Shown: piece by piece, positions 1 to 14,437 of the stretch
Numbering within the stretch: position 1 is the first letter of the stretch
Layout: each line of letters starts with the position of its first letter
DNA from: a virus
IMG/VR virus record: IMGVR_UViG_3300048591_000437
Coordinates: 1-29,677 of that record
DNA: 29,677 nt
Strand: one strand, 5' to 3'
Translations under genes and position numbers: made by a program
Notes under the pieces: generated by a model
Told to the model about the DNA's origin: nothing
The model's database searches: none
What the model saw: only the letters and a program-made list of their open reading frames with translations

Positions 1-23
1 AGCTGTCAAGAGGCGCGGCATCA

Positions 24-227
24 ATGAGCGATGAGCAAAAGCAAAAGTTCATCGCCGACGTGGATGCGGTCATCGGCGGCGTCAATCACCAACTGGCCGT
101 GCGCGAGTTGCCCCAGATCGAACACGATGACAAGGTGAGCGTGCGCTTCAAGCGCATGACCGCCGCGATTAACTCAGCCATCGCCCACGACGAAAAAGCG
201 CCGACTGAGGAGGCACAGCCGGCGTAA
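24..227 (+). CDS. Small hypothetical protein (67 aa)
   Basis: I do not recognise this protein. It is short, charged and predicted soluble, with no membrane segment and no cysteine motif. The start is supported by an AGAGG purine stretch about 10 nt upstream of ATG. It is the first complete gene in the window, and a perfect 10-bp hairpin follows its stop codon before the SWIM-domain gene. Its position at the head of the replication-side gene cluster suggests an early phage accessory protein, which is inference from location only. Confidence 0.6.
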   Translation: MSDEQKQKFIADVDAVIGGVNHQLAVRELPQIEHDDKVSVRFKRMTAAINSAIAHDEKAPTEEAQPA

Positions 228-233
228 TGCGAG

Positions 234-260
234 AGCCGGCGTGTGATGAGCACGCCGGCT
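234..260 (+). repeat. Intergenic hairpin, 10-bp stem, GCCGGC core
   Basis: AGCCGGCGTG (234-243) and CACGCCGGCT (251-260) are perfect reverse complements around a 7-nt loop, just after the stop of the first gene. No T-tract follows (ATTTCTCTC), so it is a poor intrinsic terminator. It may be an RNA-processing, mRNA-stability or weak termination element. Similar GCCGGC-core hairpins lie at 22385-22410 and 23067-23090. Confidence 0.6.
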
Positions 261-276
261 ATTTCTCTCACTCACC

Positions 277-705
277 ATGACCATTCAAGTCTCACCCGAA
301 GTTGAAATGTGCATCAGCCGCGCGGCGCTTCACCAGTCGCTTGCCGCTGATGCATCCACTGACGAAGAGCGCCGCGCGCACGAGGCGACGATGCGCTCAC
401 TCGACAAGGCCGCGATGGAGATCGTGAAGGGCAACATGCCGCGCTATGCAGGGCAGGGCGCGTGGCTCGTCGAGAGCCGCACGCAGGCCGGCACCGTGTA
501 TCGCATCGACCTCGCGACGCAGCAATGCAGTTGCAAGAACGGCAAGTCATGCTGGCACCTGGCCGCCGCGAACATCTGCGACGAAGTGCGCAGCGCGCCG
601 GCGGACGCATTGCCGGCGGTGACGATGCCCGACGTGCAGATCATGAGCGAGCTGGATGCCATGCTCGCGGCTGATGAGCTGGCAACGGATGACATTCCAT
701 TCTGA
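277..705 (+). CDS. SWIM zinc-finger protein
   Basis: This 142-aa protein carries a SWIM-type zinc-binding signature: C84-x-C86, five residues, then C92-x-H94, preceded by a short strand-rich stretch (residues 63-83) as expected for the fold. SWIM domains bind DNA or protein partners and occur in SNF2 ATPases, transposases and many small phage proteins. Here the domain stands alone with an N-terminal helical region and an acidic C-terminus. It sits upstream of an HTH-like gene and an SNF2-type helicase, so a role as a helicase accessory or DNA-binding factor is possible; this is inference. No clear Shine-Dalgarno sequence precedes the ATG. Confidence 0.75.
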   Translation: MTIQVSPEVEMCISRAALHQSLAADASTDEERRAHEATMRSLDKAAMEIVKGNMPRYAGQGAWLVESRTQAGTVYRIDLATQQCSCKNGKSCWHLAAANICDEVRSAPADALPAVTMPDVQIMSELDAMLAADELATDDIPF

Positions 706-708
706 GCC

Positions 709-1299
709 ATGACAACGATCTACGCTCCGCTCAACCGCATCGAGCGCGCAACACTCGACGACTGCGAAGGCCAGATCGAGCGCGCACTGGGCGACATTCG
801 CTCGGCATGGAAACGCATCGGCGCTGCACTCGCTCGCATTCACAAGGGCCGGCTGTATCGCGAGGTGTGCGACACCTTCGACGAATACGTCGAGCAGCGA
901 TGGGTGATCCCACGCAGCACGGCCTACGAATGGATTGAAGCCGCCGGCGTGGTGATCGCCATTGAATCGACGCCGGTCATCATCGACGGCGAGAGCCGCG
1001 TGATTGACCCGCCGAAGCGCATCCAGCACGCCCGCGAGTTGTCGAAGTTGCCGACGAATGAGCAAGCGCCGGCGCTGCACGAAGCGCGCCGGATGGCCGC
1101 CACACGCGGCGCGACCGAGCCGACCACCTACGAAGTGCGGCGCGTGGTCACGGCGCGACTGGGCGAGCCGGCCCCGCGACCGCCGGCTGAACTGGCGCAT
1201 GAGCGTCAGCAGCGCGCCCTGTGCGACCTCGTGCGGCGCGTGTGGTCGCAGATCGATGCGGAGAAGCGCAGCGAGTTGCTTCAGGAGTTGAACGCATGA
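709..1299 (+). CDS. HTH-like phage DNA-binding protein (hypothetical)
   Basis: This 196-aa, highly charged protein is not firmly assigned to a family. Residues about 22-85 have the pattern of helical DNA-binding proteins found in phages and plasmids. A helical segment with IGAALARIHKGRLYREVC is followed by VPRST-like text (IPRSTAYEWIEAAGVV), which looks like the recognition helix of a helix-turn-helix. The rest is Arg/Glu-rich and probably helical. The stop overlaps the helicase ATG (ATGA), so the two are probably translated together. It could be an early regulator or a ParB/KorB-like protein; the sequence alone does not decide. Confidence 0.6.
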   Translation: MTTIYAPLNRIERATLDDCEGQIERALGDIRSAWKRIGAALARIHKGRLYREVCDTFDEYVEQRWVIPRSTAYEWIEAAGVVIAIESTPVIIDGESRVIDPPKRIQHARELSKLPTNEQAPALHEARRMAATRGATEPTTYEVRRVVTARLGEPAPRPPAELAHERQQRALCDLVRRVWSQIDAEKRSELLQELNA

Positions 1300-2729
1300 A
1301 GACCCTCAACGACTATCGCGCATGGGTGCGCGCAAAAACCAAACACGACACGCTCAGTGGCTTTGAGGTTGATGAGCGCGAACTGAATCCGAAGATGCGC
1401 GCCGACCAGAAAGCCATCACGCAGTGGGCGCTTCAACGTGGCCGCGCCGCTGAGTTCATCATCACCGGCGGCGGCAAGGCGCTGAACGCGCTCGAATGGG
1501 CGCATCAGGTCGCGCGGCGCGCCGACAAGCGCGTGATCATGTTCGCGCCGCTCGCAGTCGCTGACCAGTTCGTAGACACCGAAGCACCGAAGTGGGGCTA
1601 CGACCTCACGTATGTGCGCAACCAGGATGAGGCGAACGCGGCGAAAACGGCCGTGGTTATCAGCAACTATGAGCTGATGGAGCGCTTCACGCCGGCGGAA
1701 TTCACCGCGACGGTGTGGGATGAGTCGAGCATCATCAAAGAGTCGTCATCGGCCACGCGCAACATGATCAACCGCATGTGGAAGCACACGCCGTATCGCC
1801 TCGCGCTGACGGCAACGCCGGCGCCGAACGATCACGATGAACTCGGCAACCACTCGCAAGCGCTCGGCATCATGCCGTGGCACGAGATGATCACGCGCTG
1901 GTTCATCCGCGATAGCAATCAGGCTGACACACTCAGGCTGAAGGGCCACGCCGAAGAAGACTTCTGGAAGTGGGTCGCATCGTGGGCGGTGTGCATGTCG
2001 AAGCCTTCTGACCTCGGCTTTGATGACGCCGGCTTCATCCTGCCGCCGCTGCGCGTTGAGCATCTCGAAGTGGCAATTGCGCCTGAGCACGCATGGGACA
2101 AGCCGAACCGATGGGGCCAGGCGGCGCTCCTGCCGCTGCAAGCCCTGAGCGCGACTGAACTGCACGCGAACAAGAAGGTCACGCTGAGCGAGCGCATGGA
2201 GGCAGCAGCCGCATGGGTGCAGCGCGACACATCGACGCCGTGCGTCGTGTGGGTCGAGCGCAACGACGAAGGCGACAAGATGCGCGAGTTGTTGCCCGAT
2301 GCAGTCGAGGTGCGCGGCGATGAGACGTTCGAGTCGAAGCGCATGAAGCTGCGCGACTTCTCGCTCGGCAACATCCGCGTGCTGATCACGAAGCCTGCCA
2401 TCGCCGGTTTCGGCATGAACTGGCAACACTGCCACCGCACGGTGATCGCATCCATGACGTTCTCATTCGAGCGCACCTTCCAACTCATCCGCCGCTTTTA
2501 TCGCTATGGCCAGACGCACGAGGTTGAGCTGGCGATGGTAAGCGCGGCGACCGAGGGCAACGTCGTGCAGGCCTTGCAGCGCAAGGAGATGCAATACCAG
2601 ACGATGCAGGCGCAGATGAACAAAGCGATGCGCGCCACAGGCCTGCTGGCCCAGGCGACGCATTTCGATGACTACGACTACACGCCGACAAAGGCGATGA
2701 AGCTGCCGGTGTGGTTGAAGCCGGCGTAA
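1296..2729 (+). CDS. Phage SNF2-type DEAD/DEAH-box helicase
   Basis: This is a superfamily 2 helicase of 477 aa. Motif I is at residues 57-62 (TGGGKA), motif II is the phage-typical WDESS at 141-145, motif III is LTATPAPND at 171-179, and motif VI is QLIRRFYRYGQ at 396-406. The start at 1296 is preferred over an in-frame upstream start at 1221: it has AGGAG at 1283-1287 and overlaps the preceding stop as ATGA. Motif I is unusual because the Thr/Ser after the catalytic Lys is Ala. Helicases of this family often sit next to a DNA methyltransferase in phage genomes, as here. A role in replication or recombination is likely, but the exact substrate is unknown. Confidence 0.88.
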   Translation: MKTLNDYRAWVRAKTKHDTLSGFEVDERELNPKMRADQKAITQWALQRGRAAEFIITGGGKALNALEWAHQVARRADKRVIMFAPLAVADQFVDTEAPKWGYDLTYVRNQDEANAAKTAVVISNYELMERFTPAEFTATVWDESSIIKESSSATRNMINRMWKHTPYRLALTATPAPNDHDELGNHSQALGIMPWHEMITRWFIRDSNQADTLRLKGHAEEDFWKWVASWAVCMSKPSDLGFDDAGFILPPLRVEHLEVAIAPEHAWDKPNRWGQAALLPLQALSATELHANKKVTLSERMEAAAAWVQRDTSTPCVVWVERNDEGDKMRELLPDAVEVRGDETFESKRMKLRDFSLGNIRVLITKPAIAGFGMNWQHCHRTVIASMTFSFERTFQLIRRFYRYGQTHEVELAMVSAATEGNVVQALQRKEMQYQTMQAQMNKAMRATGLLAQATHFDDYDYTPTKAMKLPVWLKPA

Positions 2730-2758
2730 CACAACGAGAAAAGACTGCAGGTAAAAAC

Positions 2759-3841
2759 ATGGACAAGATCAAGTTGCTCGGCCATCACTTCACAGACCAC
2801 GGCGCGATGTATCACGGCGACACCGTGGAAGTCATTCGCGGCATTCCTGATAACAGCGTGGGGATGATCCTCACGTCGATCCCATTCAGCGATCAATACA
2901 CGTATTCATCGAGCGATCACGATCTCGGCAACAACCTGGGCGATGGTGGATTTTTTGAGCACCTCGACTGGGCCATCCCAGAATGGTTGCGCGTGACCGT
3001 GCCCGGGCGCATCTGCGCGATCCACGTTAAAGATCGCCTGCGCTACAAGAATCGCTCAGGCTCAGGTGGCCTGAATCCGTTCAGCGACATGACCACAGCA
3101 GCGATGCTGAAGCACGGCTGGAACTTCCATGCGCGCATCACCATCGCGACGGATCCGGTGCGCGAGCTGCAACAGACGAAGCGGCAAGGCCTGCGCTACA
3201 TGGACATCAAAAAAGACGCGAGTATGTGCGGCCCTGGCATCCCTGAATACCTGATGCTGTATCGCAAGTGGGAAGGGCTGCCTGACGACCGCTCGTTCTC
3301 GGCTGAGCGCGTGACGCATGATGAGAACGAATACACGTTGCGCCGCTGGCAGCTTGAGGCCAATGCAATCTGGCAGTCTGACGGCACGGTGCTGGAAGGC
3401 GCGCGCTACGACCACGAAGCACGCATCGCCGCACTCGAAAGCGGCCACGACATCAACGCCGACGGCGACCGCGTGCCTTACATGGGCGGGCGCTACGCCG
3501 GACCGAAGATCACGAAGGACAAGCCGTGGATATGGCTGGACGTGGATCGCATGGACACGTTGAACTACCAGCTCGCGAAGGACGCGCGCGACGAGAAGCA
3601 CATCTGCCCGTTGCAGCTCGACCTGATCGAGCGCGCCATTCGGCTGTGGACGAACGTCGGCGACGTGGTGCTCGATCCCTTCGCCGGCATCGGCTCCGTG
3701 CCTTACAAGGCTGTTGAGATGAACCGCTACGGCGTCGGCATCGAGCTGAAAGATTCGTATTTCAAATGGGCGTGCCGCTACATCGAAGACGCCGAGCGCA
3801 TGAGCAAGACCGAGACGCTGTTCGATGTGAGGGGGGAATAA
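2759..3841 (+). CDS. DNA (adenine-N6 or cytosine-N4) methyltransferase
   Basis: This 360-aa phage amino-methyltransferase carries the catalytic motif IV TSIPF at residues 39-43, followed by the aromatic/Ser stretch DQYTYSSSD typical of this phage family. The AdoMet-binding motif I, DPFAGIGS, is at residues 306-313. Catalytic motif before the AdoMet motif corresponds to the beta-type order. The second residue of the usual SPPF is Ile. The start at 2759 has AGGT seven nt upstream; an in-frame start at 2711 would overlap the helicase gene. It probably methylates phage DNA, for protection against host restriction or as a marker for replication or packaging. The target sequence cannot be read from the protein. 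No cognate restriction nuclease is seen, so it is probably an orphan enzyme. Confidence 0.9.
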   Translation: MDKIKLLGHHFTDHGAMYHGDTVEVIRGIPDNSVGMILTSIPFSDQYTYSSSDHDLGNNLGDGGFFEHLDWAIPEWLRVTVPGRICAIHVKDRLRYKNRSGSGGLNPFSDMTTAAMLKHGWNFHARITIATDPVRELQQTKRQGLRYMDIKKDASMCGPGIPEYLMLYRKWEGLPDDRSFSAERVTHDENEYTLRRWQLEANAIWQSDGTVLEGARYDHEARIAALESGHDINADGDRVPYMGGRYAGPKITKDKPWIWLDVDRMDTLNYQLAKDARDEKHICPLQLDLIERAIRLWTNVGDVVLDPFAGIGSVPYKAVEMNRYGVGIELKDSYFKWACRYIEDAERMSKTETLFDVRGE

Positions 3842-3842
3842 A

Positions 3843-3875
3843 AACCCGCGCTTGGTTTGGGGACTCACGCGGGTT
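3843..3875 (+). terminator. Hairpin after the methyltransferase stop
   Basis: AACCCGCG (3843-3850) pairs perfectly with CGCGGGTT (3868-3875), and the stem begins two bases after the TAA stop. Only a weak T content follows, so it may be a rho-assisted or weak terminator, or a 3'-end stabiliser of the helicase/methylase transcript. A second, stronger hairpin lies 15 nt downstream. Confidence 0.5.
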
Positions 3876-3890
3876 GCACAACAGGTTGAC

Positions 3891-3921
3891 TGCGATGCAC
3901 TGCTGATTGTAGTGCATCGCA
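3891..3921 (+). promoter_or_regulatory. Inverted repeat, 13-bp stem, upstream of the replication genes
   Basis: TGCGATGCACT (3891-3901) is the exact reverse complement of AGTGCATCGCA (3911-3921). One G-T pair and one C-G pair extend the stem to a 5-nt loop at 3904-3908. It lies 18 nt before the start of the first replication-module gene and lacks a T-tract. It may be an operator for a dimeric regulator or a leader-RNA structure controlling the replication operon. The sequence alone does not separate these. Confidence 0.5.
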
Positions 3922-3939
3922 ACTGAAAAGGGAATTGCG

Positions 3940-4146
3940 ATGAAGACGAAGAAACGACAGTGGGATAGCGAGGCGACAATCCGCCGCAAGGTTGAGCGGC
4001 GCGCCCTCCCGCCTGAGCCGCCGGCGCATCTGGCAAGCGCATGGCAAGCCGTCACGCTTCGAGCGATGGCCGGCCAGAACGTGAAGCGTGACGTGCAGAA
4101 GTTGCGCCAGGCTGAGAAAGCCTACCTCAAGGGGGCACGGCCATGA
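3940..4146 (+). CDS. Small basic hypothetical protein (68 aa)
   Basis: I do not recognise this family. The protein is very rich in Lys and Arg, with a basic N-terminus and a predicted helical body, so nucleic-acid binding is plausible but unproven. The start is supported by AAAAGGGAA just upstream. The stop overlaps the start of the replication initiator as ATGA, so it is translationally coupled to that gene. Its place as the first gene after two hairpins suggests it is a co-regulated accessory of the replication module. Confidence 0.65.
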   Translation: MKTKKRQWDSEATIRRKVERRALPPEPPAHLASAWQAVTLRAMAGQNVKRDVQKLRQAEKAYLKGARP

Positions 4147-4988
4147 GCATCAAGATCATGAGCCGCGTGTGGGAATCGGACATGGAGGGAAGCCGCAAGT
4201 TGATCATGCTGGCGATGGCCGACTACGCCGATGACAACGGCGGCGGCATTTGGCCGAGCATCCCAACACTGGCGAAGAAATGCAGCATGGGCGAGCGCAC
4301 ACTTCAATCGCACCTTGCCGAGATGCGCGCCGAAGGATGGCTCTTGGTTGATGGAACGAAGCCGGTGCGGGGCGGCCTTGTCAACGTTTATCGCATCAAT
4401 CTGGAGGCGAAGTGGTGCGGAAACGGCACCGGTGCAGATTTCGCACCGGTGCAGAAAACGACAGAAAGTGGTGCGAAATCTGCACCCAATCCGTACGATC
4501 CGTCAATTAAGAGAGAGGACGGCGAAACCAAGAATGAAACGCAACACAAGCCGAAACGCTCAGGCTCTCTCTCTGCTGCAAAGACGATTACCTACAGAGA
4601 CGACGAAGTGCCGGCGCATCTGCGCAACATGAAAGCGCCGCCCAAAAAGCGCAAGCCCTTTAAAGCAGGGCAGTGGAAGGGCTACGACCCTGACCCGTCC
4701 AGCCGGCACCCGAACGTCAAGGCATATCGCCGCGCGTTCCCGTTCATCAAGCTGGAGCGTAACGAGGCGAAGACGCTGACGAACTACAAGGACTTCGCAA
4801 AGTGGTGCGAGACGCTGGCCTACTGGCGCAAGGGTGTGATGGGGCAACTGACAGGCCGGCCATGGAGCGCGCGCAACTGGCGCGGCATTCGCGAGACCTA
4901 CGACCGACTGACCCTGCGACCGCCGGCGAGTTCGGACGTGGTGAAACCGGCGCAGACGGTCGAACAGTATCAGCCTGTCTACAACTAG
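4143..4988 (+). CDS. Replication initiation / helicase-loader protein (lambda O-like HTH)
   Basis: This 281-aa protein has an N-terminal winged-helix region (about residues 1-90). Its segment ADDNGGGIWPSIPTLAKKC followed by GERTLQSHLAEMRAEGWL is the pattern of phage replication HTH proteins that read iterons. A polar, disordered linker (about 95-165) leads to a C-terminal region probably used to contact the helicase. The gene is 10 nt upstream of dnaB, the classic initiator-loader/helicase order. The DNA encoding the start of the linker contains 17-nt palindromic iterons, as in the lambda O gene, so the protein probably binds inside its own gene. GGGGGC lies upstream of the ATG, and the gene overlaps the previous stop. 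The loader role is inferred from context. Confidence 0.8.
   Translation: MSIKIMSRVWESDMEGSRKLIMLAMADYADDNGGGIWPSIPTLAKKCSMGERTLQSHLAEMRAEGWLLVDGTKPVRGGLVNVYRINLEAKWCGNGTGADFAPVQKTTESGAKSAPNPYDPSIKREDGETKNETQHKPKRSGSLSAAKTITYRDDEVPAHLRNMKAPPKKRKPFKAGQWKGYDPDPSSRHPNVKAYRRAFPFIKLERNEAKTLTNYKDFAKWCETLAYWRKGVMGQLTGRPWSARNWRGIRETYDRLTLRPPASSDVVKPAQTVEQYQPVYN
4414..4486. other. Candidate replication origin: 17-nt palindromic iterons
   Basis: Three 17-nt sequences share the form GGTGC-N7-GCACC: 4414-4430 (GGTGCGGAAACGGCACC), 4431-4447 (GGTGCAGATTTCGCACC) and 4470-4486 (GGTGCGAAATCTGCACC). A fourth at 4448-4464 keeps the left half and spacer (GGTGCAGAAAAC) but loses the right arm. The 4431 and 4470 copies are exact reverse complements. 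The first three units are directly abutting. The cluster lies where the initiator gene encodes the linker between its DNA-binding and C-terminal parts. A purine-rich, AT-richer stretch (about 4487-4560) follows. Position and architecture match the lambda-type origin inside gene O. Confidence 0.78.
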
Positions 4989-4998
4989 CGAGGACGCG

Positions 4999-6333
4999 AT
5001 GACACAGACCAACAAAAACAACATCCTGAATCCGGCGCTCGTGCTGAGCGAGATCGACATTGAGCGCGCGCTGCTGGGCGCGATGCTCATCAGCCCGCCG
5101 GCGGCGCGCCAAGCGTGCTCGATGCTGCGCACGGAGGACTTCTACGACCATCGGCATCAGTGGGTGTTTGAAGCCATCGCCGCGTGCGAGGGTGAGGCGG
5201 ATGAACTGACCGTGAGCGAACGCTTGCGTGCGATGGGCAAACTGGCCGAGGTGGGGGAGGGCTTCATCGATGAGCTGGTGACGGACACGCCCATGTCGCA
5301 TTACCCGACGCGCGCGGCGCAGTATGCAAACACTGTCGCAGATCGCGCTGAGCGCCGGCGCCTGATCGACGCATGCGGCTTGATTGCGAAGTCGGTGTAT
5401 GACACGGCTTCGCCGTTGGCAAGCATCTACGGCACGGCCATGCAGCGCTTCAGCGAGTCGGCGCGCATCGTTGGGCGACAGGCAGAAACGATGCAAGACG
5501 TTGCGATGGCGGCGCTCATGGCCTTCGACGATCGCGTGGAGCGCGCCGGCAAGCTGCTCGGCTACTCATGCGGTGTGAGCGATCTGGATGGGCTGACTGC
5601 CGGCTGGCAGCCGACGCAACTCATCACTATCGCTGGCCGCCCGGGCAGCGGCAAGTCTGTGCTCCTTGCGCAGTCATCCCTTCGCGCGGCGCTTGCCGGC
5701 CTGCACGTCATGCACTTCACACTGGAGATGAGCGCGAAAGAAACGATGATCCGGCTTGCAAAGAATCACTCGCTTGTCGGCTACTCAACCGGCAGGGAGC
5801 ACACGCTGAGCGCAGAGAACAAAACCAAACTGCGCAACGCACTGGGCACGCTGAGCGACTTGCCGCTGAGCATCCGCACAACGGACAGCATCGGCCAGAT
5901 CGTCGCGGAATGCGAAGTCGAACGCCGGCGCGGCAAGTGCGACATGGTTGTGCTCGACTACCTGCAAATTGCGCAGATCGACGGCGACACGAAGGGCGAC
6001 GCAGGCACCCGCGACGCCGAACTGAGCAAGGCCACGCGGCTGCTCAAGCGCATGGCGATGCGGCTGGAAGTGCCGGTGCTTATCGGCTCGCAACTCAACC
6101 GTCAGGCCGAAGGCGTGCGACCGACACTGGCAAGCCTTCGCGAGTCGGGCGGCATCGAGGCGGATAGCAACGTGGTCATCGGCTTGTGGCAGGAAGACCC
6201 GACACTGCAACCGAACATCGTTACGGCGTCGGTCATCAAAAACCGTGACAACGGCATCGGCGACGTTCGCTTGTATTTCAACAAGCCGGCGCATCGCATG
6301 GCCGACACAGAGAAAGTGAAGGTGGAACTATGA
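4999..6333 (+). CDS. dnaB: Replicative DNA helicase, DnaB family
   Basis: This is a full-length replicative helicase of 444 aa, close to the usual family length. The N-terminal DnaB helical domain (about residues 14-110) starts with EIDIERALLGAML. The RecA-like motor carries Walker A GRPGSGKS at residues 213-220, the TLEMS motif, Walker B around VVLDYLQ (D320), and the downstream segment SQLNRQAEGVRPTLASLRES. It unwinds DNA ahead of the replication fork as a hexamer. It is preceded by GAGGA and by the initiator/loader gene, and its stop overlaps the start of the nuclease gene. No DNA polymerase or primase is visible in this window, so host enzymes or genes elsewhere probably supply these. Confidence 0.95.
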   Translation: MTQTNKNNILNPALVLSEIDIERALLGAMLISPPAARQACSMLRTEDFYDHRHQWVFEAIAACEGEADELTVSERLRAMGKLAEVGEGFIDELVTDTPMSHYPTRAAQYANTVADRAERRRLIDACGLIAKSVYDTASPLASIYGTAMQRFSESARIVGRQAETMQDVAMAALMAFDDRVERAGKLLGYSCGVSDLDGLTAGWQPTQLITIAGRPGSGKSVLLAQSSLRAALAGLHVMHFTLEMSAKETMIRLAKNHSLVGYSTGREHTLSAENKTKLRNALGTLSDLPLSIRTTDSIGQIVAECEVERRRGKCDMVVLDYLQIAQIDGDTKGDAGTRDAELSKATRLLKRMAMRLEVPVLIGSQLNRQAEGVRPTLASLRESGGIEADSNVVIGLWQEDPTLQPNIVTASVIKNRDNGIGDVRLYFNKPAHRMADTEKVKVEL

Positions 6334-6725
6334 CGCGCGGCTTCAACCGTCACTATCAACGCCTCGGCGCACAAGCCGCGCGTGAGGCGCGAGCGCGCGC
6401 CGCCGTGCTGAAGGCGCTGGAGCCGAAGAACGAAGCCGAACTGCGCGGGCGCATCTGCGACGCGCTGCGGCAGATGGGCTGGGTTGCGCGCGACCTGTCG
6501 CAACGCCGCAAGGTCGAGGGCGGGTTGCGTGACCTGCCCGACATCTTCGCGTGGAAGGCGGGGCGCACGCTCATGATCGAAACGAAACACGGCGGCAACG
6601 ACCTTCGCGACGGCCAGGCGCGCTTCGCCGCGGAGATCGAGCCGCACACGGATCCTCGCACCTTGATCTATTGCAAAGCCCGCAGCGTGGACGACGTGCT
6701 GCGAGCACTGGGAATGCAACCATGA
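6330..6725 (+). CDS. VRR-NUC domain nuclease
   Basis: This 131-aa protein matches the VRR-NUC branch of the PD-(D/E)XK nucleases. It has an early acidic residue in NEAELRGRIC (residues 34-43), a GGLRDLPD turn with D71, the IETK strand with E84 and K86, and a downstream Q96 in DGQARF. Phage members are structure-specific nucleases thought to resolve replication or recombination junctions, usually encoded near helicases. The start overlaps the dnaB stop (ATGA). All the expected catalytic positions are present, so an active enzyme is likely. Confidence 0.87.
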   Translation: MTRGFNRHYQRLGAQAAREARARAAVLKALEPKNEAELRGRICDALRQMGWVARDLSQRRKVEGGLRDLPDIFAWKAGRTLMIETKHGGNDLRDGQARFAAEIEPHTDPRTLIYCKARSVDDVLRALGMQP

Positions 6726-6904
6726 ACACATTGTTGATTGCTATAGGCATCGTCGCGCTCATCGCGCTGCTTGTCGTTCTGATCGTCGCCGTTGTGCGCG
6801 TCGTCAGGTTCCTCGCCGGCGTGCTCAGAATGAGCGACAGGGAGATATTCGAGGCGGCGCGCAAGGCTGGACTGCCGGTGCACGACCGGCAGCGGCGGTG
6901 GTGA
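6722..6904 (+). CDS. Small single-pass membrane protein (60 aa)
   Basis: The protein has one strongly hydrophobic segment (residues 3-35), rich in Ile, Leu and Val, followed by a basic amphipathic tail of about 25 residues. It overlaps the stop of the nuclease gene as ATGA, which fixes the start at 6722 rather than an in-frame start at 6551 inside the nuclease gene. The function is unknown. A membrane anchor or regulatory peptide at the end of the replication operon is all that can be said. A hairpin and a palindrome follow the stop. Confidence 0.6.
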   Translation: MNTLLIAIGIVALIALLVVLIVAVVRVVRFLAGVLRMSDREIFEAARKAGLPVHDRQRRW

Positions 6905-7029
6905 GACGCAGGACGACGGCTCATCACCGTCGTCTTGCACATGTCCGAAATTCGGACGTTTGTCAGAGTGAATCCTAAGCGGCATGTAGGTGCGAACGCC
7001 GGCAGGATGTGCGACTAACTGAATAGCGC
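6905..7029. promoter_or_regulatory. Intergenic regulatory region with hairpin and 15-nt palindrome
   Basis: This 125-nt gap holds a hairpin (GACGACGG 6912-6919 with CCGTCGTC 6927-6934) without a T-tract. It also holds the near-perfect palindrome GTCCGAAATTCGGAC at 6943-6957, followed three bases later by TTGTCA, a -35-like hexamer at 6960-6965. The -10 match about 17-18 nt further on is poor. The palindrome recurs twice elsewhere in the window, which supports an operator role. The gap separates the replication operon from the small-protein block. Confidence 0.5.
6943..6957. promoter_or_regulatory. Palindromic site GTCCGANNNTCGGAC, copy 1
   Basis: GTCCGAAATTCGGAC has 7-bp inverted arms around a single central base. 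It is the only intergenic member of a three-copy family; the other two lie inside genes at 19950-19964 and 25383-25397. It may be an operator for a dimeric phage repressor. Dispersed operators of this kind, both intergenic and intragenic, are known as stoperators in some actinobacteriophages. Confidence 0.5.
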
Positions 7030-7236
7030 ATGAACAACCCTCGATTCATCCAATGCTCCAGCGAAACGGAATACCAGGCCATGCTCGTCTTCCAGCGTTA
7101 CTTTCAGCGCGCTCTGCAGGGCGGGTTGATCGAGCCGAGGAGCGAGTGGATGATCGGCGTGCGCAAGCCGCGCGACGGCAAGCTGCACGGCGTGGTGCAG
7201 ACCGACTCCGTGCCGATTGACCCCGCCGTTCTGTAA
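7030..7236 (+). CDS. Small hypothetical protein (68 aa)
   Basis: I do not recognise this protein. It is soluble, with a region rich in Gln and aromatic residues at 10-30 and a strand-like C-terminus. No good Shine-Dalgarno sequence precedes the ATG. It is a stand-alone small gene between the regulatory gap at 6905-7029 and the first terminator-containing unit at 7243-7325, so its transcript probably ends there. Confidence 0.5.
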   Translation: MNNPRFIQCSSETEYQAMLVFQRYFQRALQGGLIEPRSEWMIGVRKPRDGKLHGVVQTDSVPIDPAVL

Positions 7237-7242
7237 TTGCGC

Positions 7243-7248
7243 TAGAAT
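7243..7248 (+). promoter_or_regulatory. -10-like box of intergenic unit A
   Basis: TAGAAT matches TATAAT at five of six positions and lies 36 nt upstream of terminator hairpin A. TTGACC at 7217-7222 is a possible -35 box, but the spacer is 20 nt, longer than normal. The same position relative to a terminator is occupied by TACAAT or TAGAAT in three other units, which is the main support. Confidence 0.4.
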
Positions 7249-7283
7249 CAAATCAACTTAATACCGGCACGCGCCGGATTACC

Positions 7284-7325
7284 AGCGCGGCCACGATCTC
7301 AAGTCGTGGCCGCGCTTTTGTTTTT
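7284..7325 (+). terminator. Intrinsic terminator of unit A
   Basis: AGCGCGGCCACGA (7284-7296) pairs perfectly with TCGTGGCCGCGCT (7304-7316) around a 7-nt loop, followed by TTTTGTTTTT. This is a textbook rho-independent terminator. A smaller hairpin (CCGGC-ACGC-GCCGG) precedes it. It lies between a -10-like box and the holin-like gene at 7357, so it may act as an attenuator in that gene's leader as well as ending upstream transcripts. Confidence 0.88.
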
Positions 7326-7356
7326 CTCTTGACTGTGACTCGACTGTGAGGTGAAC

Positions 7357-7644
7357 ATGAACGCGACCGAACTTTCAGCACTCGCCGGCGTCGCCTTGTC
7401 GCTGGCCTTCTCGTATCTCCCCGGCCTCAGTGACCGCTTCGACGCCCAAAGCCCAACGACCAAGCGCCTCGTCATGGCCGGCGTCCTCCTTGCGCTCAGT
7501 GCCCTGATCTACGCGCTGTCATGCGCAGGCGTGCTGACCGTCGCCACCTGTGACAAGACCGGCGCGCTGGGCCTTGCATCGGCGTTTCTGGCGGCGCTTG
7601 TGGCGAATCAGGCGACGTATGCCATCAGCCCTCGCAAGGGGTAA
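7357..7644 (+). CDS. Holin-like small membrane protein (95 aa)
   Basis: Three hydrophobic stretches are visible, at about residues 3-22, 38-60 and 70-88, with short polar connections. This is the size and layout of small phage holins, which permeabilise the inner membrane at lysis. The preferred start is ATG at 7357, with GAGGTG just upstream; a GTG two codons earlier is possible. It is the first gene after terminator unit A and begins a run of membrane-protein genes. No endolysin is recognised nearby, so the holin call rests on topology and context. It could be another phage membrane protein. Confidence 0.5.
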   Translation: MNATELSALAGVALSLAFSYLPGLSDRFDAQSPTTKRLVMAGVLLALSALIYALSCAGVLTVATCDKTGALGLASAFLAALVANQATYAISPRKG

Positions 7645-7649
7645 ACGAC

Positions 7650-8288
7650 GTGGACGCGCTCACGATGCTCAGGGTTCTGCGCGTCGCGCTGGGGCTATGC
7701 GTGATTGTCGTTGTGATCGTGCTTGCAGTGCGGCGGAGGATCGAATGGTGGCAAGTCGCATGGCTGATGATCTATCTCATCAACCAGTCGGCGTTTGCCG
7801 CCTACATCCTCATCGCAGGCCATCTCGGCGCCATCGACACGGCAATGGCGCGCATCTGGAGCGTCACGCTCGACATTCACGGCTCGTTTGCGATGCTGAT
7901 GTTTCTGACCGTGGTGATGCTGAGCGGGCGCAAGGGGCGGGGCGACGGACAGGGCAAGGGGCAGAGCAAAGGGCAACGCAATGAACGGCGCAAGCCTCAG
8001 CCTCAGCGACTTGCTCGGACTCGTGCTGACCGGGCTGATGATCGTCATCAGTCTCTTGTCGATCTTTCGGCGGAATGGGAATTCCTCGACCGCATCCGAT
8101 GCGCAAGCCCTCAGCGCGTCATGGCGCATGCTGACGCAGGAGCAGCGGCGCGAGATCGAGATCAAGGACGTGCACAACGCGCTGCTCGCAGAGCAGCTTT
8201 GGCGGGCGAGGATCGAGCCGGTGCCGCGAGCGCAAGCCGAGACGATCTACAACACGGTGAGCGACCTGGCCGCGCAATTCTCGATTGA
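7650..8288 (+). CDS. Multi-pass membrane protein with long overlapping C-terminus
   Basis: The GTG start at 7650 has AAGGGG nine nt upstream. Residues 1-90 contain three hydrophobic segments (about 8-27, 35-57 and 75-92), followed by a Gly/Lys/Gln-rich stretch. After about residue 110 the frame runs out of phase through the next gene (7981-8442) for some 308 nt, giving Arg-rich text that looks like a shadow translation. So the frame is open, but the functional protein may be only about 110 residues, with the stop lost by mutation or a sequencing frameshift. A holin or anti-holin role is possible from its location only. Confidence 0.5.
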   Translation: MDALTMLRVLRVALGLCVIVVVIVLAVRRRIEWWQVAWLMIYLINQSAFAAYILIAGHLGAIDTAMARIWSVTLDIHGSFAMLMFLTVVMLSGRKGRGDGQGKGQSKGQRNERRKPQPQRLARTRADRADDRHQSLVDLSAEWEFLDRIRCASPQRVMAHADAGAAARDRDQGRAQRAARRAALAGEDRAGAASASRDDLQHGERPGRAILD

Positions 8289-8442
8289 CGAACTGGACAC
8301 CCTCATGCTGGCTATAGACATTCGACCCGACTCCGTGCGCGGCGACACCATCGAGGAGCGCGCCCGCGAGCTGGTGCTGGCCGCCGACCGGCGCGGTCGG
8401 TTGGAGGCGCTCGTCCGCGCAGCGAGGGCAGAACGGCCATGA
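7981..8442 (+). CDS. Membrane-anchored effector-associated-domain (EAD, death-like) protein
   Basis: This 153-aa protein has one N-terminal membrane segment (about residues 9-29), a helical linker (about 45-85) and a C-terminal domain (about 88-153). The domain follows the pattern of bacterial effector-associated domains: FSIDELDTLMLAIDI at 100-114, an ERARELV helix around 126-132, and GRLEALVRAARAERP at 139-153. EADs are small death-fold-like adaptors that link NLR-type ATPases, proteases, TIR domains and other effectors in bacterial conflict systems, and are common in Chloroflexota and Cyanobacteria. In a phage it could be a decoy or a recruiter of host effectors. The subtype is not assigned. 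The start overlaps no recognised stop and has AAAGGGC upstream. Confidence 0.68.
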   Translation: MNGASLSLSDLLGLVLTGLMIVISLLSIFRRNGNSSTASDAQALSASWRMLTQEQRREIEIKDVHNALLAEQLWRARIEPVPRAQAETIYNTVSDLAAQFSIDELDTLMLAIDIRPDSVRGDTIEERARELVLAADRRGRLEALVRAARAERP

Positions 8443-8681
8443 GACATGCCATGAGGCCAGCCGTGAGACATGCCGTGCAACATCTTGCGCAACTGGCGCT
8501 GGCCATTGTGCTGTTTGGGGCGTCGCTCGCGCTTGTGGCGGGCGAGTCAGGCACGACCGATGCGAACACCGGCTACAACACGCCGGCTTTCACGAGTCGA
8601 TATCCGGCAGTGGAATCAGCCGGGAAAGATGATCGGCCTCTCGCGTGCGACTATCGCTATACACAGGCGGTGCACAAGTGA
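8439..8681 (+). CDS. Small protein with N-terminal membrane/signal segment (80 aa)
   Basis: The start overlaps the EAD gene stop as ATGA. A basic, His/Arg-rich N-terminus (residues 1-14) is followed by one hydrophobic segment (about 16-35) and then a polar C-terminus of about 45 residues. This is consistent with export or a type II membrane anchor. The N-terminal DNA contains a repeated TGAGACATGCC (8440-8450 and 8464-8474), so the leader seems to have grown by duplication. Its place in the membrane-protein block allows a spanin-like or lysis-accessory guess, but there is no lipobox and no coiled coil, so the function is left open. Confidence 0.5.
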   Translation: MRHAMRPAVRHAVQHLAQLALAIVLFGASLALVAGESGTTDANTGYNTPAFTSRYPAVESAGKDDRPLACDYRYTQAVHK

Positions 8682-8694
8682 ACAGAGGGACACG

Positions 8695-8961
8695 GTGAAA
8701 TACGAAGCAAAACCCACGGTCGTCAACGCAATTCAGTTCACGCCCACGAGCACCGGCCAATGCGCTGCGCTCGTGGGCATCCACAACATCATCGGCCACG
8801 TCAAGGGCGACTGCCTGATCCTCGCCACCGCGCGCGGCCCCGAGATTGCGCGCATCGGTGACTACATCGTCAAGCGCGCCTGTGGCGACATCGGCGTGGA
8901 GAAGCGCGACACGTTTGAGCGCGACTTTCAGCCGGCGCCCACCTTGCTTGCACATGGCTAA
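8695..8961 (+). CDS. PGDYG-like small phage protein (88 aa)
   Basis: The start is GTG at 8695, chosen because the protein sequence becomes family-like exactly there; the open frame further upstream (from 8470) is the shadow of the preceding gene. The sequence reads as a common small phage protein. An N-terminal strand KPTVVNAIQFTP is followed by a central segment and the IGDYIVKRACGDIGVEKRD region, equivalent to the PGDY/W turn, ending in DTFERDFQPA. The family is small, beta-rich and widespread in phage genomes, with no established function. It overlaps the next gene by 8 nt. Confidence 0.65.
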   Translation: MKYEAKPTVVNAIQFTPTSTGQCAALVGIHNIIGHVKGDCLILATARGPEIARIGDYIVKRACGDIGVEKRDTFERDFQPAPTLLAHG

Positions 8962-9169
8962 ACTTTCTGACCGCGAGCTGATCGACGCCATTCTCGAAAG
9001 CCCGTGCCGGCGCGAGGCGGTGGAGCAACTTGTCATGATGATGGCGGCGACGGCGCAGAATGGCCGGCTAAATGGCCGCTACGAAGTGACCATCGCAGGG
9101 CGTCAGGTGTCGAGCGCGGTGTATCAACACCACTGCTCGCGCACACTGCCGGAGCGGGTGAGCGCATGA
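8954..9169 (+). CDS. Small hypothetical protein (71 aa)
   Basis: I do not recognise this protein. It starts inside the last codons of the PGDYG-like gene, which argues for translational coupling. Residues 1-35 are helical and acidic, with a Met-rich patch (VMMMAAT). The rest looks strand-rich, with two Cys/His-containing spots (HHCSR near the end). It is the last gene before the 260-nt non-coding gap that precedes the packaging genes. Its start has no strong Shine-Dalgarno sequence. Confidence 0.5.
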   Translation: MAKLSDRELIDAILESPCRREAVEQLVMMMAATAQNGRLNGRYEVTIAGRQVSSAVYQHHCSRTLPERVSA

Positions 9170-9431
9170 GGTCGCGCGCATGACGTGAAGGCGGCGCAAA
9201 GGGGCGCAAAGAAGCGCCTCAAGAAGCGCCTCGGAAGTGCGCAGCGCGGCAGGTCGTTCGCGGATGCTCTCACGGCGCGGCGGGTAGCGTAAAGCAACCG
9301 CCCTCGCACCATCCACGACGCCGCCCAACGTTCACTTCGAGGCGCTCTGCGTCCTCTTGGCCGGCGGGCAGGACGCAACAATATTGTAATGCGTTTGTAT
9401 ACGGGTATACGATTTAAGGAATGTCGGAAAG
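9170..9431. promoter_or_regulatory. 260-nt non-coding gap before the packaging genes
   Basis: I see no convincing gene here. The first part contains short duplications (AGAAGCGCCTC twice near 9210-9240). The last 55 nt are much richer in A and T and hold ACAATATTGT, a perfect 10-bp palindrome (9378-9387), and two GTATAC sites separated by GG (9397-9402 and 9405-9410). TTGTAA (9385-9390) and TATACG (9406-9411) could form -35/-10 boxes with a short 15-nt spacer. This is the most likely place for a late-gene control region. Confidence 0.45.
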
Positions 9432-9896
9432 ATGTCGGATTTTGACTGGACGCCCAGACGCAGCGACGCGGCGGTGATGCTTGCGAAGGGCTGCACGAAC
9501 AAGGAGACCGCCGAGGCCGTCGGTGTGGCCGAGCGCACGATCGAACGCTGGCGCGCCGACACTGAGTTCATGGCAGAGGTTGACCGGCTGAGCGTGATGG
9601 TTGACCTGGCAAACAGGGCAGAGCGGCTGAGGCTTGCGCAGCGGGTTGTGCGGCGCATGGAAGAGCGCACGGGGCGCGACCTGCTCGACTGGCTGAGGTT
9701 CATTCAGAGTGAAACAGATGGCGCGAAACTCGACGGCGGCTTCATCGAAAAACTTGCCGCCCTCCTATCGTCTGGCGAAGGCGCGCCCGACGTTGCTCCC
9801 GCCGAAAGCGCAGGCGCAACTGGCGGCGACGCTCGCGCCGGCGCAACCCCAGACAGCGCAACCCCAGACGGCGCAAGCGCCCCTGACCCCGCCTGA
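9432..9896 (+). CDS. Terminase small subunit-like HTH protein
   Basis: This 154-aa protein begins with a homeodomain-like helix-turn-helix (about residues 8-47). Its sequence AAVMLAKGCTNKETAEAVGV followed by ERTIERWRAD is the classic pattern of DNA-recognition domains in small terminase subunits. A helical middle (about 50-110) probably drives oligomerisation. The last 45 residues are Ala/Gly/Pro-rich and overlap the next frame. It sits directly upstream of the large terminase, the expected partner that binds the packaging site. ATGTCGGA is repeated across its start (about 9421-9440). Confidence 0.78.
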   Translation: MSDFDWTPRRSDAAVMLAKGCTNKETAEAVGVAERTIERWRADTEFMAEVDRLSVMVDLANRAERLRLAQRVVRRMEERTGRDLLDWLRFIQSETDGAKLDGGFIEKLAALLSSGEGAPDVAPAESAGATGGDARAGATPDSATPDGASAPDPA

Positions 9897-11214
9897 CATT
9901 GCCGACTGGATCGACACATCCGTCACCATCGAAGACCCTCAGCGCGAGCCGTCGATCATCCCGTTCGGCCTGTGGCCGGCCCAGCGCGACGTGTTGCAGT
10001 CGCTCCAGCATGAGCGGCAGATCATCATTCTCAAGGCGCGCCAGCTCGGCATCACCTGGCTCGTGCTGGCGTATGCCCTGCACCTGTGCCTCTTCCACGC
10101 CAACAAGACGGTCATCATCATCTCGAAGGATCAAGAGGCGGCCAATGAGACGATCCGGCGCGCACGCGGCATGTTCACGCGGCTGGAGGCAAAGCCGGCG
10201 GCGCTCGTCATTGACAACGTGGGCGAGGTCGCATGGTCGAACGGCTCTCGCGTCAAGGCGTTTGCGTCCTCCAGCGATGCCGGCTCATCGTTCACCGGCT
10301 CCCTGTTGATTCTGGATGAGTTGGCAAAGAACCCGAAAGCCGATGCGATCTACACCTCGGCAAAGCCGACGATTGACGACGGCGGGCGCGTGGTGATCCT
10401 GAGCACCGCGAAGGGCAAAGACAACCTGTATCACCGGCTTTGGACAAAGGCAACCGAGGGCGCGAACAACCTGAAGGCGATCTTCATCCCATGGCACGCA
10501 AGGCCCGGCCGGGACGAGGCGTGGTATGGCCGTGTGGCCGCCGACGCGCCGACGATGCAGCATCACACGCAGGAATACCCCGCGACGCCAGAGGAGGCCT
10601 TTCAGGCGCTTGCAGAAACGCCCTTCTTGCCGGCGATTGCATGGTGGGACATGTGCCGCGAAGACCTGCCGCCGCTAGGTGGCCGTGAGCCGGTGGTCGT
10701 TGCGCTCGATGCGGCCACGACGAACGACTCATTCGGACTTGCGGTGGTGAGCCGGCACCCGCAACGAAAGGGCGACGTGGCGCTGCGCATGACGCGAGAA
10801 TGGCGACCCGTGGACGGCGTGATTCGGTTCGGCGACAAGGGCGACCCAGAAACGCCGCGTGGCTATGTGCAGATGCTCATCGACCGCTTCAACGTGGTGC
10901 AACTGTGCGGCGACCCCTACCAGTTGCACCAGATGTTCGGCGAAATCAGGGACGCTGGCCGCGTCTACGTGGCCGAGTTCAATCAGGGCGCAGAGCGGCT
11001 TGAGTCTGACAACCAGTTGAAGCAACTTATCATTGAGCGGCGCATCTCGCACGACGGCGACGCAACTGCACGCCGGCACATCGAGAACGCCGACGCGAAG
11101 GTAGACGCCGATGCGCACAAGTTGCGCATCGTGAAGCGCGAGCAAAGCATGAAGATCGACGTGGCCGTCTGCATCAGCATGGCCGCCAAGCGATGCCTTG
11201 ACCTGAGCCTGTAG
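9718..11214 (+). CDS. Terminase large subunit (ATPase-nuclease)
   Basis: This is the packaging motor of 498 aa. The ATPase has the terminase-type Walker A KARQLGIT (about 10033-10056), Walker B LLILDE (about 10303-10320) and a coupling motif near LSTAKGKDN. The C-terminal RNase H-like nuclease starts at VALDAATTNDSFGLAVVS, with further acidic residues downstream. The start is uncertain. ATG 9718 (or GTG 9709) would overlap the small subunit gene by about 180 nt, and the first 60 residues are Pro/Ala/Gln-rich. The clearly family-like sequence begins near PDIADWID (about 9892), so translation from a rarer codon is possible. A 14-nt direct repeat lies at 9841-9870. Confidence 0.92.
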   Translation: MARNSTAASSKNLPPSYRLAKARPTLLPPKAQAQLAATLAPAQPQTAQPQTAQAPLTPPDIADWIDTSVTIEDPQREPSIIPFGLWPAQRDVLQSLQHERQIIILKARQLGITWLVLAYALHLCLFHANKTVIIISKDQEAANETIRRARGMFTRLEAKPAALVIDNVGEVAWSNGSRVKAFASSSDAGSSFTGSLLILDELAKNPKADAIYTSAKPTIDDGGRVVILSTAKGKDNLYHRLWTKATEGANNLKAIFIPWHARPGRDEAWYGRVAADAPTMQHHTQEYPATPEEAFQALAETPFLPAIAWWDMCREDLPPLGGREPVVVALDAATTNDSFGLAVVSRHPQRKGDVALRMTREWRPVDGVIRFGDKGDPETPRGYVQMLIDRFNVVQLCGDPYQLHQMFGEIRDAGRVYVAEFNQGAERLESDNQLKQLIIERRISHDGDATARRHIENADAKVDADAHKLRIVKREQSMKIDVAVCISMAAKRCLDLSL

Positions 11215-11257
11215 CGCGCCTGGCAGCGAGACTGGACGCGCGTGTGGTGATTGGCGA

Positions 11258-11263
11258 TACAAT
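11258..11263 (+). promoter_or_regulatory. -10-like box of intergenic unit B
   Basis: TACAAT in the context GATACAATCG lies 30 nt upstream of terminator hairpin B and 71 nt upstream of the portal start. TGGACG (11233-11238) is a weak -35 candidate with a 19-nt spacer. Support comes mainly from the equal placement of TANAAT boxes in all four intergenic units. Confidence 0.45.
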
Positions 11264-11273
11264 CGCACAAACA

Positions 11274-11322
11274 ACTGTCGTTCGCACATTTGAACGCGGC
11301 TGAGCAATCAGCCGCGTTTTTT
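11274..11322 (+). terminator. Unit B: ACTGTCGTTCG box plus intrinsic terminator
   Basis: The box ACTGTCGTTCG (11274-11284) is followed by AACGCGGCTGA (11293-11303), a GCAA tetraloop and TCAGCCGCGTT (11308-11318), then a T-run. The stem is a perfect 11 bp and the loop is of GNRA type. The same hairpin recurs exactly at 14456-14481. It lies only 12 nt before the portal start codon, which lacks a Shine-Dalgarno sequence, so an attenuator or leader role is plausible. Confidence 0.85.
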
Positions 11323-11333
11323 GTATCTAACAC

Positions 11334-13904
11334 ATGGCGCAAATACAACCTGATGTCCTGAAGCGAAGCGTCACCCGCGATGAAGCCGAATCCGGCATGT
11401 CGCACTACTGGATTGCGCCGCTGGCATTCGGCGCGGGCGCCGGCCTCGTGTCCATGCCCTACGAGCCGCCCGCATACTGGAGCCGTGAGCGCGACATCGC
11501 CCTGCGTGACGCCTACCGTCGCGGCGCACAGTGGGCGAGCGCGGTGAATATTGCCGTGACGCGCGTGGGCGTGTCGGGCTACGAACTCGACGGCGACGTG
11601 GGCTTGCGCGTCCGGCGCGCCCGCGAGATGCTCGGCTCGTCGTGGATCGACGCCGTGCAGCGCCTTGCGATGGATTACGTGACGACTGACAACGGCGGCT
11701 TCTGGGAGATCGTGCGCGCCACAAAGGCGTACGGCTCGCGCGTGCTGGGCATCGTGCCTCTGTCGAGCATTCGCTGCATCCGCACCGGCGATCCTGAGCG
11801 ACCGGTGATCTACGTTGACCGGCTCGGCAGGTATCACGAGCTGCGGGCACATCAGGTCGCCGGCTTCAGCGACATGCCCGACGAAGACTATTTCGGCGTC
11901 GGCCTCAGCGCAACGTCGCGCGCGTGGGACGCGATCTATGAGGACATGGCTGTGAGCGCCTACTTCAAGGAGAAGGCGACCGGCCGCCGGCCCCTCGCGC
12001 TCTACTTCATGACCGGCATGGCCGATCAGGCCATCGAAGACACGCTGAAGACGGCGCAAGAGGACGCGTCGCGCAAAGGGCTTCTGTCGTTCATGGGCGC
12101 GGCGATCAAGGGCAACCCGAACAATGTGCCGCTGAACCTCGTCACCGTGCCGCTTGCATCGCTCCCTGACGGCTTCAACCAGGAGAAACACGAGGAGCTG
12201 CGCGACATCAAGTTCGCCGCCGCGCTGGGCATCGACCCATCCGACCTAAACCCGCGGCTGATCGGCAACCGGCAGCTCGGCGCGGGCAGTCAGGCGCAAG
12301 TGCTTGACGACAAGCAGGATTCAAAGGGCTTGATTGCACTGCGTCAAAAAATTGCCGCGTTCATGAACGACACGGAGACGTGGCACCCGTTGCCAGGCGG
12401 CGTGACGTTTGCATGGAGCGAGCGCGACCTGAAGGATCAGCAGGCGAAAGCCGGCATCGCTCAGACGCGTGCGCAGACCCGCGCTGCGCAGATTCAATCG
12501 GGCGAGATCACGACCGAGGAGGCGCGGCAACTGGCCGTGGACGCCGGCGACATTCCGCAGTCGTTCATCCCTGTGGACAAGACCGACGAGGAGACGCTGA
12601 CCGACGAAGACAAGGCCGACAGTGGGCAGTTGCCGGAGGCGACGCCTGAAGTGCAATCGACGCAGGGCACGCCTGCGCCGATGAATGTGCAGCCGGCGGT
12701 GAAGTTGGCCGAACTGCGCGCGCTGCTGTATGAGGTCGTGGCCTACGGAGGCATTGCAGCCAAAGAAGGGCACACCGGCGCGATGGTCGCGCTGTATCCG
12801 CCGCAGTCTCAGGCGCTGGCCATTTCCGCCGGCCTTGATGCCGTGAGCTGGCCGCCCGATGCGAAGGTGACACAACCCAGTGAGATGCACATCACACTCG
12901 CATTTCTGGGTGAAGCTGCGAGCATCGATGAAGCGCGCCGGCGCGAGATGGCCACCAAGGCTGAGGACATGCTGCGCGAGGTGCCGGAGGCGGTGCGCTT
13001 CAACGGCATTGCGCGCTTCAATGGCAGTGAGTCAGACGGCGATGCGGTTGTCGTGTTGCTCAGCAGCAGCCGCCTGAACGCGCTCGCGGCCAACGTGCGG
13101 CGCGAGATCGGCGATGAGAGCGAGCATCCGTTCCTTGCGCACATGACGCTTGCCTATATCCCGAAGGATGCCCCCACCCCGACAGTGCCGCCGCCATTTG
13201 ATGCGCTGCGCATCGACCGACTGTCGCTCGTGTTTGCAGATAAACCGTTCGCAGAGTGGAAGTTGAAGAACGGAGTTGCGCTCCCAAAAGCTGACCCCCG
13301 TCAAACGGGGGCAAGCGCGCCGGCGGCTGCGCTCAAAGCCGCCCGCGGCTCGACCTTGCTTGCGCGCATCATCCCATCGCCGACGAATGAGCCGGCCACG
13401 CGCAAGGATGCCATCGCTTACTGGAAGCGCGCCACGACGCTGCTTGAAGGCGTCGGGGAGGCGTGGAAGGAAGCCGCGCGCGGACTCGCGCCTTCGGAGA
13501 CCGGCGAACTAAAGGAGTCGATCAGCTATGAGCTAACAGGACGCAACTCGCCGACCGTCACACTCAAGCTCATCGCCGGCAACAAGGAGCGGCCAGAGGT
13601 TGCCATTCGCGCCGTGCTGTATGGCCGGCGAGGCTTTGCGCCGAAGCGAGCGAAAGCCTTGCGCTTCACAGTCGGCGGCCAGACGGTGTTTGCGCGCAAG
13701 GTCAAGGGCGCGCTGGCAAACGACTGGCTGTCGAAGTCGCTCAAAGCCATCGAGCCGACCATGCGCGAGGCGGAGCGCGAGCTGGCGAGCGTGACAGTGA
13801 ACAGCATCGAAGTGTCGGATATTCCAGGCGCGATCAAGCGCACGCGGCAGTCGCAGATTCAAGCGCCGAAGACGCCGAAGACGCCGAAGCGCAAGCGCAA
13901 GTAA
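11334..13904 (+). CDS. Portal protein fused to 2H phosphoesterase and gp10-like domains
   Basis: This 856-aa protein has three parts. Residues about 1-445 are an HK97-type portal, the dodecameric DNA gate. Evidence includes the SIRC..TGDPERP.IYVDRLGRY segment, a VAGFSD strand, and the stem/clip-like EKHEELRDIKFAAALGI region. Residues about 465-645 form a 2H phosphoesterase with the paired motifs H519-x-T521-L and H603-x-T605-L, so the active site is intact. Residues about 690-835 resemble an HK97 gp10-like connector (SETGELKESISYEL, then YGRRGFAPKRAKALRF). The frame is open throughout. The 2H family cleaves 2',5' or cyclic nucleotide linkages and includes anti-CBASS Acb1, so a counter-defence role is possible. 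Confidence 0.85.
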   Translation: MAQIQPDVLKRSVTRDEAESGMSHYWIAPLAFGAGAGLVSMPYEPPAYWSRERDIALRDAYRRGAQWASAVNIAVTRVGVSGYELDGDVGLRVRRAREMLGSSWIDAVQRLAMDYVTTDNGGFWEIVRATKAYGSRVLGIVPLSSIRCIRTGDPERPVIYVDRLGRYHELRAHQVAGFSDMPDEDYFGVGLSATSRAWDAIYEDMAVSAYFKEKATGRRPLALYFMTGMADQAIEDTLKTAQEDASRKGLLSFMGAAIKGNPNNVPLNLVTVPLASLPDGFNQEKHEELRDIKFAAALGIDPSDLNPRLIGNRQLGAGSQAQVLDDKQDSKGLIALRQKIAAFMNDTETWHPLPGGVTFAWSERDLKDQQAKAGIAQTRAQTRAAQIQSGEITTEEARQLAVDAGDIPQSFIPVDKTDEETLTDEDKADSGQLPEATPEVQSTQGTPAPMNVQPAVKLAELRALLYEVVAYGGIAAKEGHTGAMVALYPPQSQALAISAGLDAVSWPPDAKVTQPSEMHITLAFLGEAASIDEARRREMATKAEDMLREVPEAVRFNGIARFNGSESDGDAVVVLLSSSRLNALAANVRREIGDESEHPFLAHMTLAYIPKDAPTPTVPPPFDALRIDRLSLVFADKPFAEWKLKNGVALPKADPRQTGASAPAAALKAARGSTLLARIIPSPTNEPATRKDAIAYWKRATTLLEGVGEAWKEAARGLAPSETGELKESISYELTGRNSPTVTLKLIAGNKERPEVAIRAVLYGRRGFAPKRAKALRFTVGGQTVFARKVKGALANDWLSKSLKAIEPTMREAERELASVTVNSIEVSDIPGAIKRTRQSQIQAPKTPKTPKRKRK

Positions 13905-13911
13905 CAGGCAA

Positions 13912-13938
13912 ATGAAACTCACGCGATGAAACTCACGC
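13912..13938 (+). repeat. Tandem duplication across a start codon
   Basis: ATGAAACTCACGC occurs at 13912-13924 and again at 13926-13938, a 14-nt tandem unit. The first copy encodes a five-codon mini-ORF (MKLTR, then TGA) whose stop overlaps the ATG of the gp10-like gene. The duplication may leave the upstream copy as a coupling leader or may be neutral. Confidence 0.7.
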
Positions 13939-14421: not shown

Positions 14422-14437
14422 TCTGCAAAGAACAAGA

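Follow-up and report, generated by a model that had tools for sequence, protein, structure and literature searches.

An iteron array inside the gene of an HTH_36-type initiator as the likely replication origin of an uncultivated phage, and covariation of iterons with the recognition helix across the family

The window analysed here is the whole of a 29,677-bp stretch from an uncultivated phage (IMG/VR record IMGVR_UViG_3300048591_000437), whose replication region encodes an O-like initiator immediately followed by a DnaB-type helicase. The initiator scores 49.2 bits against the Pfam HTH_36 family (PF13730, E=4.6e-13; gathering cut-off 25) and matches PHROG_391, replication initiation O-like, over residues 1-175 (E=1.8e-23), which places it in both families; it also matches PHROG_1032 (E=7.5e-23). 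In a structure search with its N-terminal domain, the nearest solved folds were generic, namely winged-helix regulators, the DnaD N-domain and an initiator entry, and no match had an E-value below 1e-3. The features of the locus are the following:

4143-4988, plus strand: O-like replication initiator gene, 281 aa (HTH_36 and PHROG matches)
4149-4397, plus strand: winged-helix DNA-binding domain, residues 3-85 (AlphaFold2 model, pLDDT about 95)
4293-4334, plus strand: recognition helix, residues 51-64, ERTLQSHLAEMRAE (helix in the model; residues 51, 52 and 56 track iteron bases)
4410-4592, plus strand: disordered linker, residues about 90-150, which holds the iterons (low pLDDT, about 45 at the iterons)
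4414-4430, no strand assigned: iteron 1, GGTGCGGAAACGGCACC (exact pattern match)
4431-4447, no strand assigned: iteron 2, GGTGCAGATTTCGCACC (exact pattern match)
4448-4464, no strand assigned: iteron 3, degenerate, with a single intact half-site, GGTGCAGAAAACGACAG (from the sequence)
4470-4486, no strand assigned: iteron 4, GGTGCGAAATCTGCACC (exact pattern match; reverse complement of iteron 2)
4487-4530, no strand assigned: AT-richer flank, candidate unwinding element (50% AT; downstream AT tract at the family level)
4665-4913, plus strand: C-terminal helical region, residues 175-257 (low-confidence model helices), a possible helicase-contact region
4999-6333, plus strand: phage DnaB-type replicative helicase (DnaB_C E=2.4e-48, DnaB E=3.5e-17, PHROG_19 E=1.2e-71)

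The helicase gene is followed at 6330-6725 by one for a VRR-NUC/resolvase-like protein (profile matches), and a small SWIM zinc finger protein is encoded where the replication region begins (277-705). Just 5' of a small ORF at 3940, which precedes the initiator gene, positions 3891-3921 form a perfect 11-bp inverted repeat, TGCGATGCACT-N9-AGTGCATCGCA, a candidate operator or hairpin that overlaps a possible -35 element, TTGACT.

The iterons follow the pattern GGTGC-N7-GCACC, which a search of the entire 29,677-bp record finds exactly three times, all within 4414-4486, with no further exact copy outside this interval. Iterons 1-3 abut directly at a pitch of exactly 17 nt, iterons 3 and 4 are separated by the spacer AAAGT, and the units at 4431 and 4470 are perfect reverse complements of each other. 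When the initiator gene was shuffled among synonymous codons, three or more copies of any palindrome with 5-bp arms arose in 10 of 20,000 shuffles; by this null, an array of three palindromes is more than chance. The iterons encode initiator residues ~91-115. A pitch of 17 nt shifts the reading frame from one abutting unit to the next, and the four iterons begin in codon frames 1, 0, 2 and 0; the repeated unit is thus DNA and not peptide. The 44 bp that follow the array are 50% AT, a modest rise over the 41% of the preceding part of the gene and the 37% of dnaB. The original prediction had described three full units and one half-decayed one, the exact abutment of three of them and the complementarity of two, their place in the linker of the initiator, an AT-richer stretch behind them and dnaB downstream, and at the level of the window all of this holds, the iterons falling in the stretch of the model with a pLDDT of ~45.

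Arrays of this kind recur in the genes of related initiators. Viral contigs, scanned by DNA alone, gave at least 120 stretches in which two GGTGC-N7-GCACC units lie within 25 bp; 89 of the 120 listed are in O-like HTH ORFs, typically at codons 85-200, compared with none of the 12 stretches that a composition-matched control palindrome yielded. All three codon frames are occupied by the 248 family units (186/38/24), frame 0 being the commonest. Another 28 stretches were neither in nor near an O-like ORF, and roughly half of them belong to divergent HTH, RepA_N or Phage_rep_O initiators, while about a dozen loci with the pattern were rejected as initiators, being collagen-like or low-complexity proteins or non-coding. 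The doubles found in genes with other DNA-binding domains, Phage_rep_O (L134) and RepA_N (L114), either reflect the same site reached independently or, for L114, a chance peptide repeat.

We also took the reverse approach and gathered homologues by their N-terminal protein domain alone, which gave 82 non-redundant genes. A palindromic linker array above the 95% level of the synonymous-shuffle null is present in 62% of these, and above the 99% level in 49%; the array statistic used counts extra units, fixed 7-bp half-sites in pairs only having proved too blunt. By a stricter, earlier count on 52 genes, 17 carry at least two exact identical palindromes (0.65 expected), as compared with 1 of 47 when the next gene was taken for comparison. 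Members encoded by enterobacterial, Vibrio, Pseudomonas and sphingomonad phages, O-like proteins of HTH_36/PHROG_391, share the N-terminal domain and the linker arrays, and the window gene belongs with them; the lineages differ in their iteron arms, which are lineage-specific (GGTGCA, CCCGCA, CCCGAA, GGTGAC/GGTGTC or GGTGWC, CTGCCA and others). Iteron number and spacing, expected to be kept while the linker changes, are conserved only loosely, in that spacings of 17-24 bp are common but both number and spacing vary. Across 84 family arrays, AT content in the first 40 bp downstream exceeds that of the gene by ~13 percentage points (p=2e-13); this excess falls to baseline beyond 40 bp and is much weaker on the upstream side. 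In several relatives (L443, L455, L466, L473 and L474) the initiator is shortened and ends soon after the HTH, and the array lies 8-26 bp past the stop codon, so that it need not be coding; these genes may be split, or the initiators may lack a C-terminal domain.

The arm sequence of the iterons covaries more strongly with the recognition helix than with other regions of the domain. For 43 genes with clear registers, eight arrays of ambiguous register being left out, a partial Mantel test of half-site against recognition-helix distance, controlled for the rest of the domain, gave r=0.43 (p=0.0002), and much the same result was obtained with the eight added back (partial r=0.40, p=0.0002). The best correlation among all 10-residue windows of the domain is that of residues 49-58. 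Within this training set, A at dyad position -4 is found in 7/7 cases with Asp51 versus 0/18 with Glu51, and Arg56 goes with C at dyad position -3 (8/9 versus 2/34). In a separate, exploratory comparison, T at -4 goes with Ser or Ala at residue 52 (10/10 versus 2/30). In a single-column test on the first 43 proteins, several residues that make no contact ranked high too, which is a sign of shared ancestry, and we therefore added tree-based and out-of-sample tests; the residue rules, having been derived from the 43 genes, were tested on other genes.

In 33 other genes of the GGTGC type, Asp51 does not occur and Arg56 occurs once, in the only one with C at -3. A second DNA-only scan, for doubles of GGTG[A/T]C-N5-G[A/T]CACC, returned 108 stretches, 87 of them in O-like ORFs, and Arg56 is present in all 40 of the previously unused, non-redundant proteins with GGTG[A/T]C arrays, against a family background of 30%. 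On a tree that leaves the recognition helix out, Arg56 and C at -3 each changed about 30 times, and the eight supported independent contrasts all agree (p=0.008). For the Asp51 rule, the first tree offered only two supported independent pairs, and the sign test was not significant. The initiator of the window has Glu51 and Ser56; its iterons have the expected C at -4 and vary at -3, where the half-sites show A, C or G, so the window is no example of the Arg56 rule.

Given the covariation and the out-of-sample tests, the initiator very probably reads the iterons at 4414-4486, which supports the original prediction that the encoded HTH protein binds the array. More broadly, we consider it probable that HTH_36-type initiators from phages of many hosts bind their own sites inside or just behind their genes by a simple recognition code, in which Arg56 pairs with C at -3, and the base at -4 is A with Asp51, C with Glu51 and possibly T with Ser52. 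Our literature search, made mostly without subscription journals, found no paper on a family-wide recognition code for HTH_36-type initiators, and the rule appears, provisionally, to be new.

Iterons within the gene of the initiator are a known design, as in lambda O and SPP1 gp38. In lambda and the Stx phages as well as in SPP1, in-gene iterons, an AT-rich tract and an initiator complex that leads to the loading of a DnaB-type helicase have experimental support (PMC7466680; PMC6316719), and O binds its iterons in EMSA and footprinting (PMC7466680). The window shares with ori-lambda, and with the origins of the Stx phages 933W and P27, the position of the iterons in the initiator gene, after the DNA-binding domain and ahead of the C-terminal part; beside them, lambda has an AT-rich tract and the window a modest AT-richer one. 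The window also has what typifies an origin of the lambda type, several palindromic iterons of ~17-20 bp in the initiator gene after the DNA-binding domain. The lambda iterons, four annotated units of 18 bp, start ~116 codons into O, whereas those of the window are 17 bp long, start ~90 codons in and differ in sequence. The proteins differ as well: lambda O carries Phage_rep_O (PF04492, E=5.7e-36), for which a Pfam search of the window initiator, an HTH_36 protein, found no match, so that it is not of the lambda O family. Lambda uses its P loader to bring in the DnaB of the host; the window phage instead encodes DnaB as the next gene, without a loader of the lambda P type. The locus may accordingly be called lambda-like, as had been proposed, in its layout, but not in its protein family or its helicase recruitment.

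In encoding its own DnaB, the phage is nearer to SPP1, which has the DnaB-type helicase gp40 and, within gene 38, the oriL repeats, to which the encoded gp38 binds and which have an AT-rich unwinding element next to them (PMC6316719). The likeness to gp38 is one of arrangement, and SPP1 in addition has gp39 as a separate loader and oriR as a second origin, neither of which was found in the window phage. An origin within the initiator gene is also found in repABC plasmids, where oriV lies inside repC and has an A+T-rich region (PMC3155836); this is a plasmid system, and the same paper reports no iterons in repC. For the HTH_36 members, we found no experimental origin mapping in the literature searched.

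In all likelihood, then, the iterons at 4414-4486 belong to the replication origin of the phage, which is placed inside the gene of its own initiator. The O-like homology, the adjacent dnaB, the AT tract of the family and the precedents of lambda and SPP1 together argue strongly for origin function. Against it, GC skew does not turn near 4.4 kb, as the original prediction had expected it to, either in the window or in a near-identical contig of 36.5 kb. Initiation might proceed as follows. The N-terminal winged helix would bind each 17-bp palindrome as a dimer, with one recognition helix per GGTGC half-site, where the covariation supports the specific reading and the dyad suggests the dimer. 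Adjacent units at the 17-bp pitch could then nucleate an initiator complex comparable to the lambda O-some, which would strain and melt the AT-richer tract that adjoins the array on its 3' side. Finally, going by gene order and by lambda and SPP1, the C-terminal part would bring in DnaB, the product of the adjacent phage gene, to start replication.

Winged-helix proteins often bind palindromic operators, and covariation speaks for specific reading, not for its outcome, as would also be expected were the array an in-gene operator at which the HTH protein blocks or modulates transcription of its own gene and dnaB and does not start replication. We regard this as improbable: by the pattern search of the window, no unit lies near a promoter upstream of the operon, the array being placed ~270 nt into the gene; the annotation of the family is replication initiation, and in the window dnaB comes next; and multi-unit arrays with an AT-richer tract on one side are what the lambda and SPP1 origins have. 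Operator and origin roles could, however, coexist. It is very unlikely that the true origin is elsewhere in the genome and that the array titrates the initiator in the control of copy number or incompatibility. Some replicons do have several initiator-binding regions, such as SPP1 with oriL and oriR (PMC6316719), and GC skew gives the array no support as an origin; the 36.5-kb contig, on the other hand, is free of any second array with the GGTGC half-site.

That the repeats were selected as peptide, in the form of a Gly-Ala-x-x-Ala-Pro linker repeat, or as RNA, in the form of mRNA hairpins, has a negligible probability. GGT GCN N.. GCA CC does encode GAxxAP when read in frame 0, which accounts for most family units (186 of 248), but both the window and the family make use of all three frames, several relatives have the array 8-26 bp outside the shortened initiator ORF, the arm sequence follows the recognition helix of the HTH, and a search of Rfam gave no match.

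The origin reading adds to the known cases of in-gene iterons an uncultivated phage whose initiator is of the HTH_36 type and which encodes its own DnaB. As each gene of this type holds a DNA-binding domain together with its target, phage genomes in large numbers offer ready protein-site pairs, and these, combined with a predictive rule, make origin prediction, initiator specificity and cross-talk or exclusion in phage replication testable from sequence. If the code is true, specificity groups of origins, and which phages could use each other's origins, would be readable in the same way.

The near-identical contig, 36,458 bp long, has the initiator gene and the array without any difference; it is 100% identical to the window over positions 1-17458, and all 14 differences fall in the remaining 12.2 kb (17459-29677). 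Close but non-identical homologues of the initiator were not found in IMG/VR, where only this contig matched. The longer contig (L430) encodes at 78-1007 a C-terminal fragment of a large serine recombinase (Recombinase, Zn_ribbon_recom), which suggests a temperate phage. Elsewhere in the window, positions 18003-20780 encode, among virion structural genes, a pair of glycosyltransferase family 2 proteins, of which the second has the domain twice, an unusual placement that suggests glycosylation of the virion or of a surface. At 11334-13904, a portal-like protein (PHROG_146) shares its ORF with a 2'-5' RNA ligase/LigT-type phosphoesterase domain, which may have a role in counter-defence or maturation.
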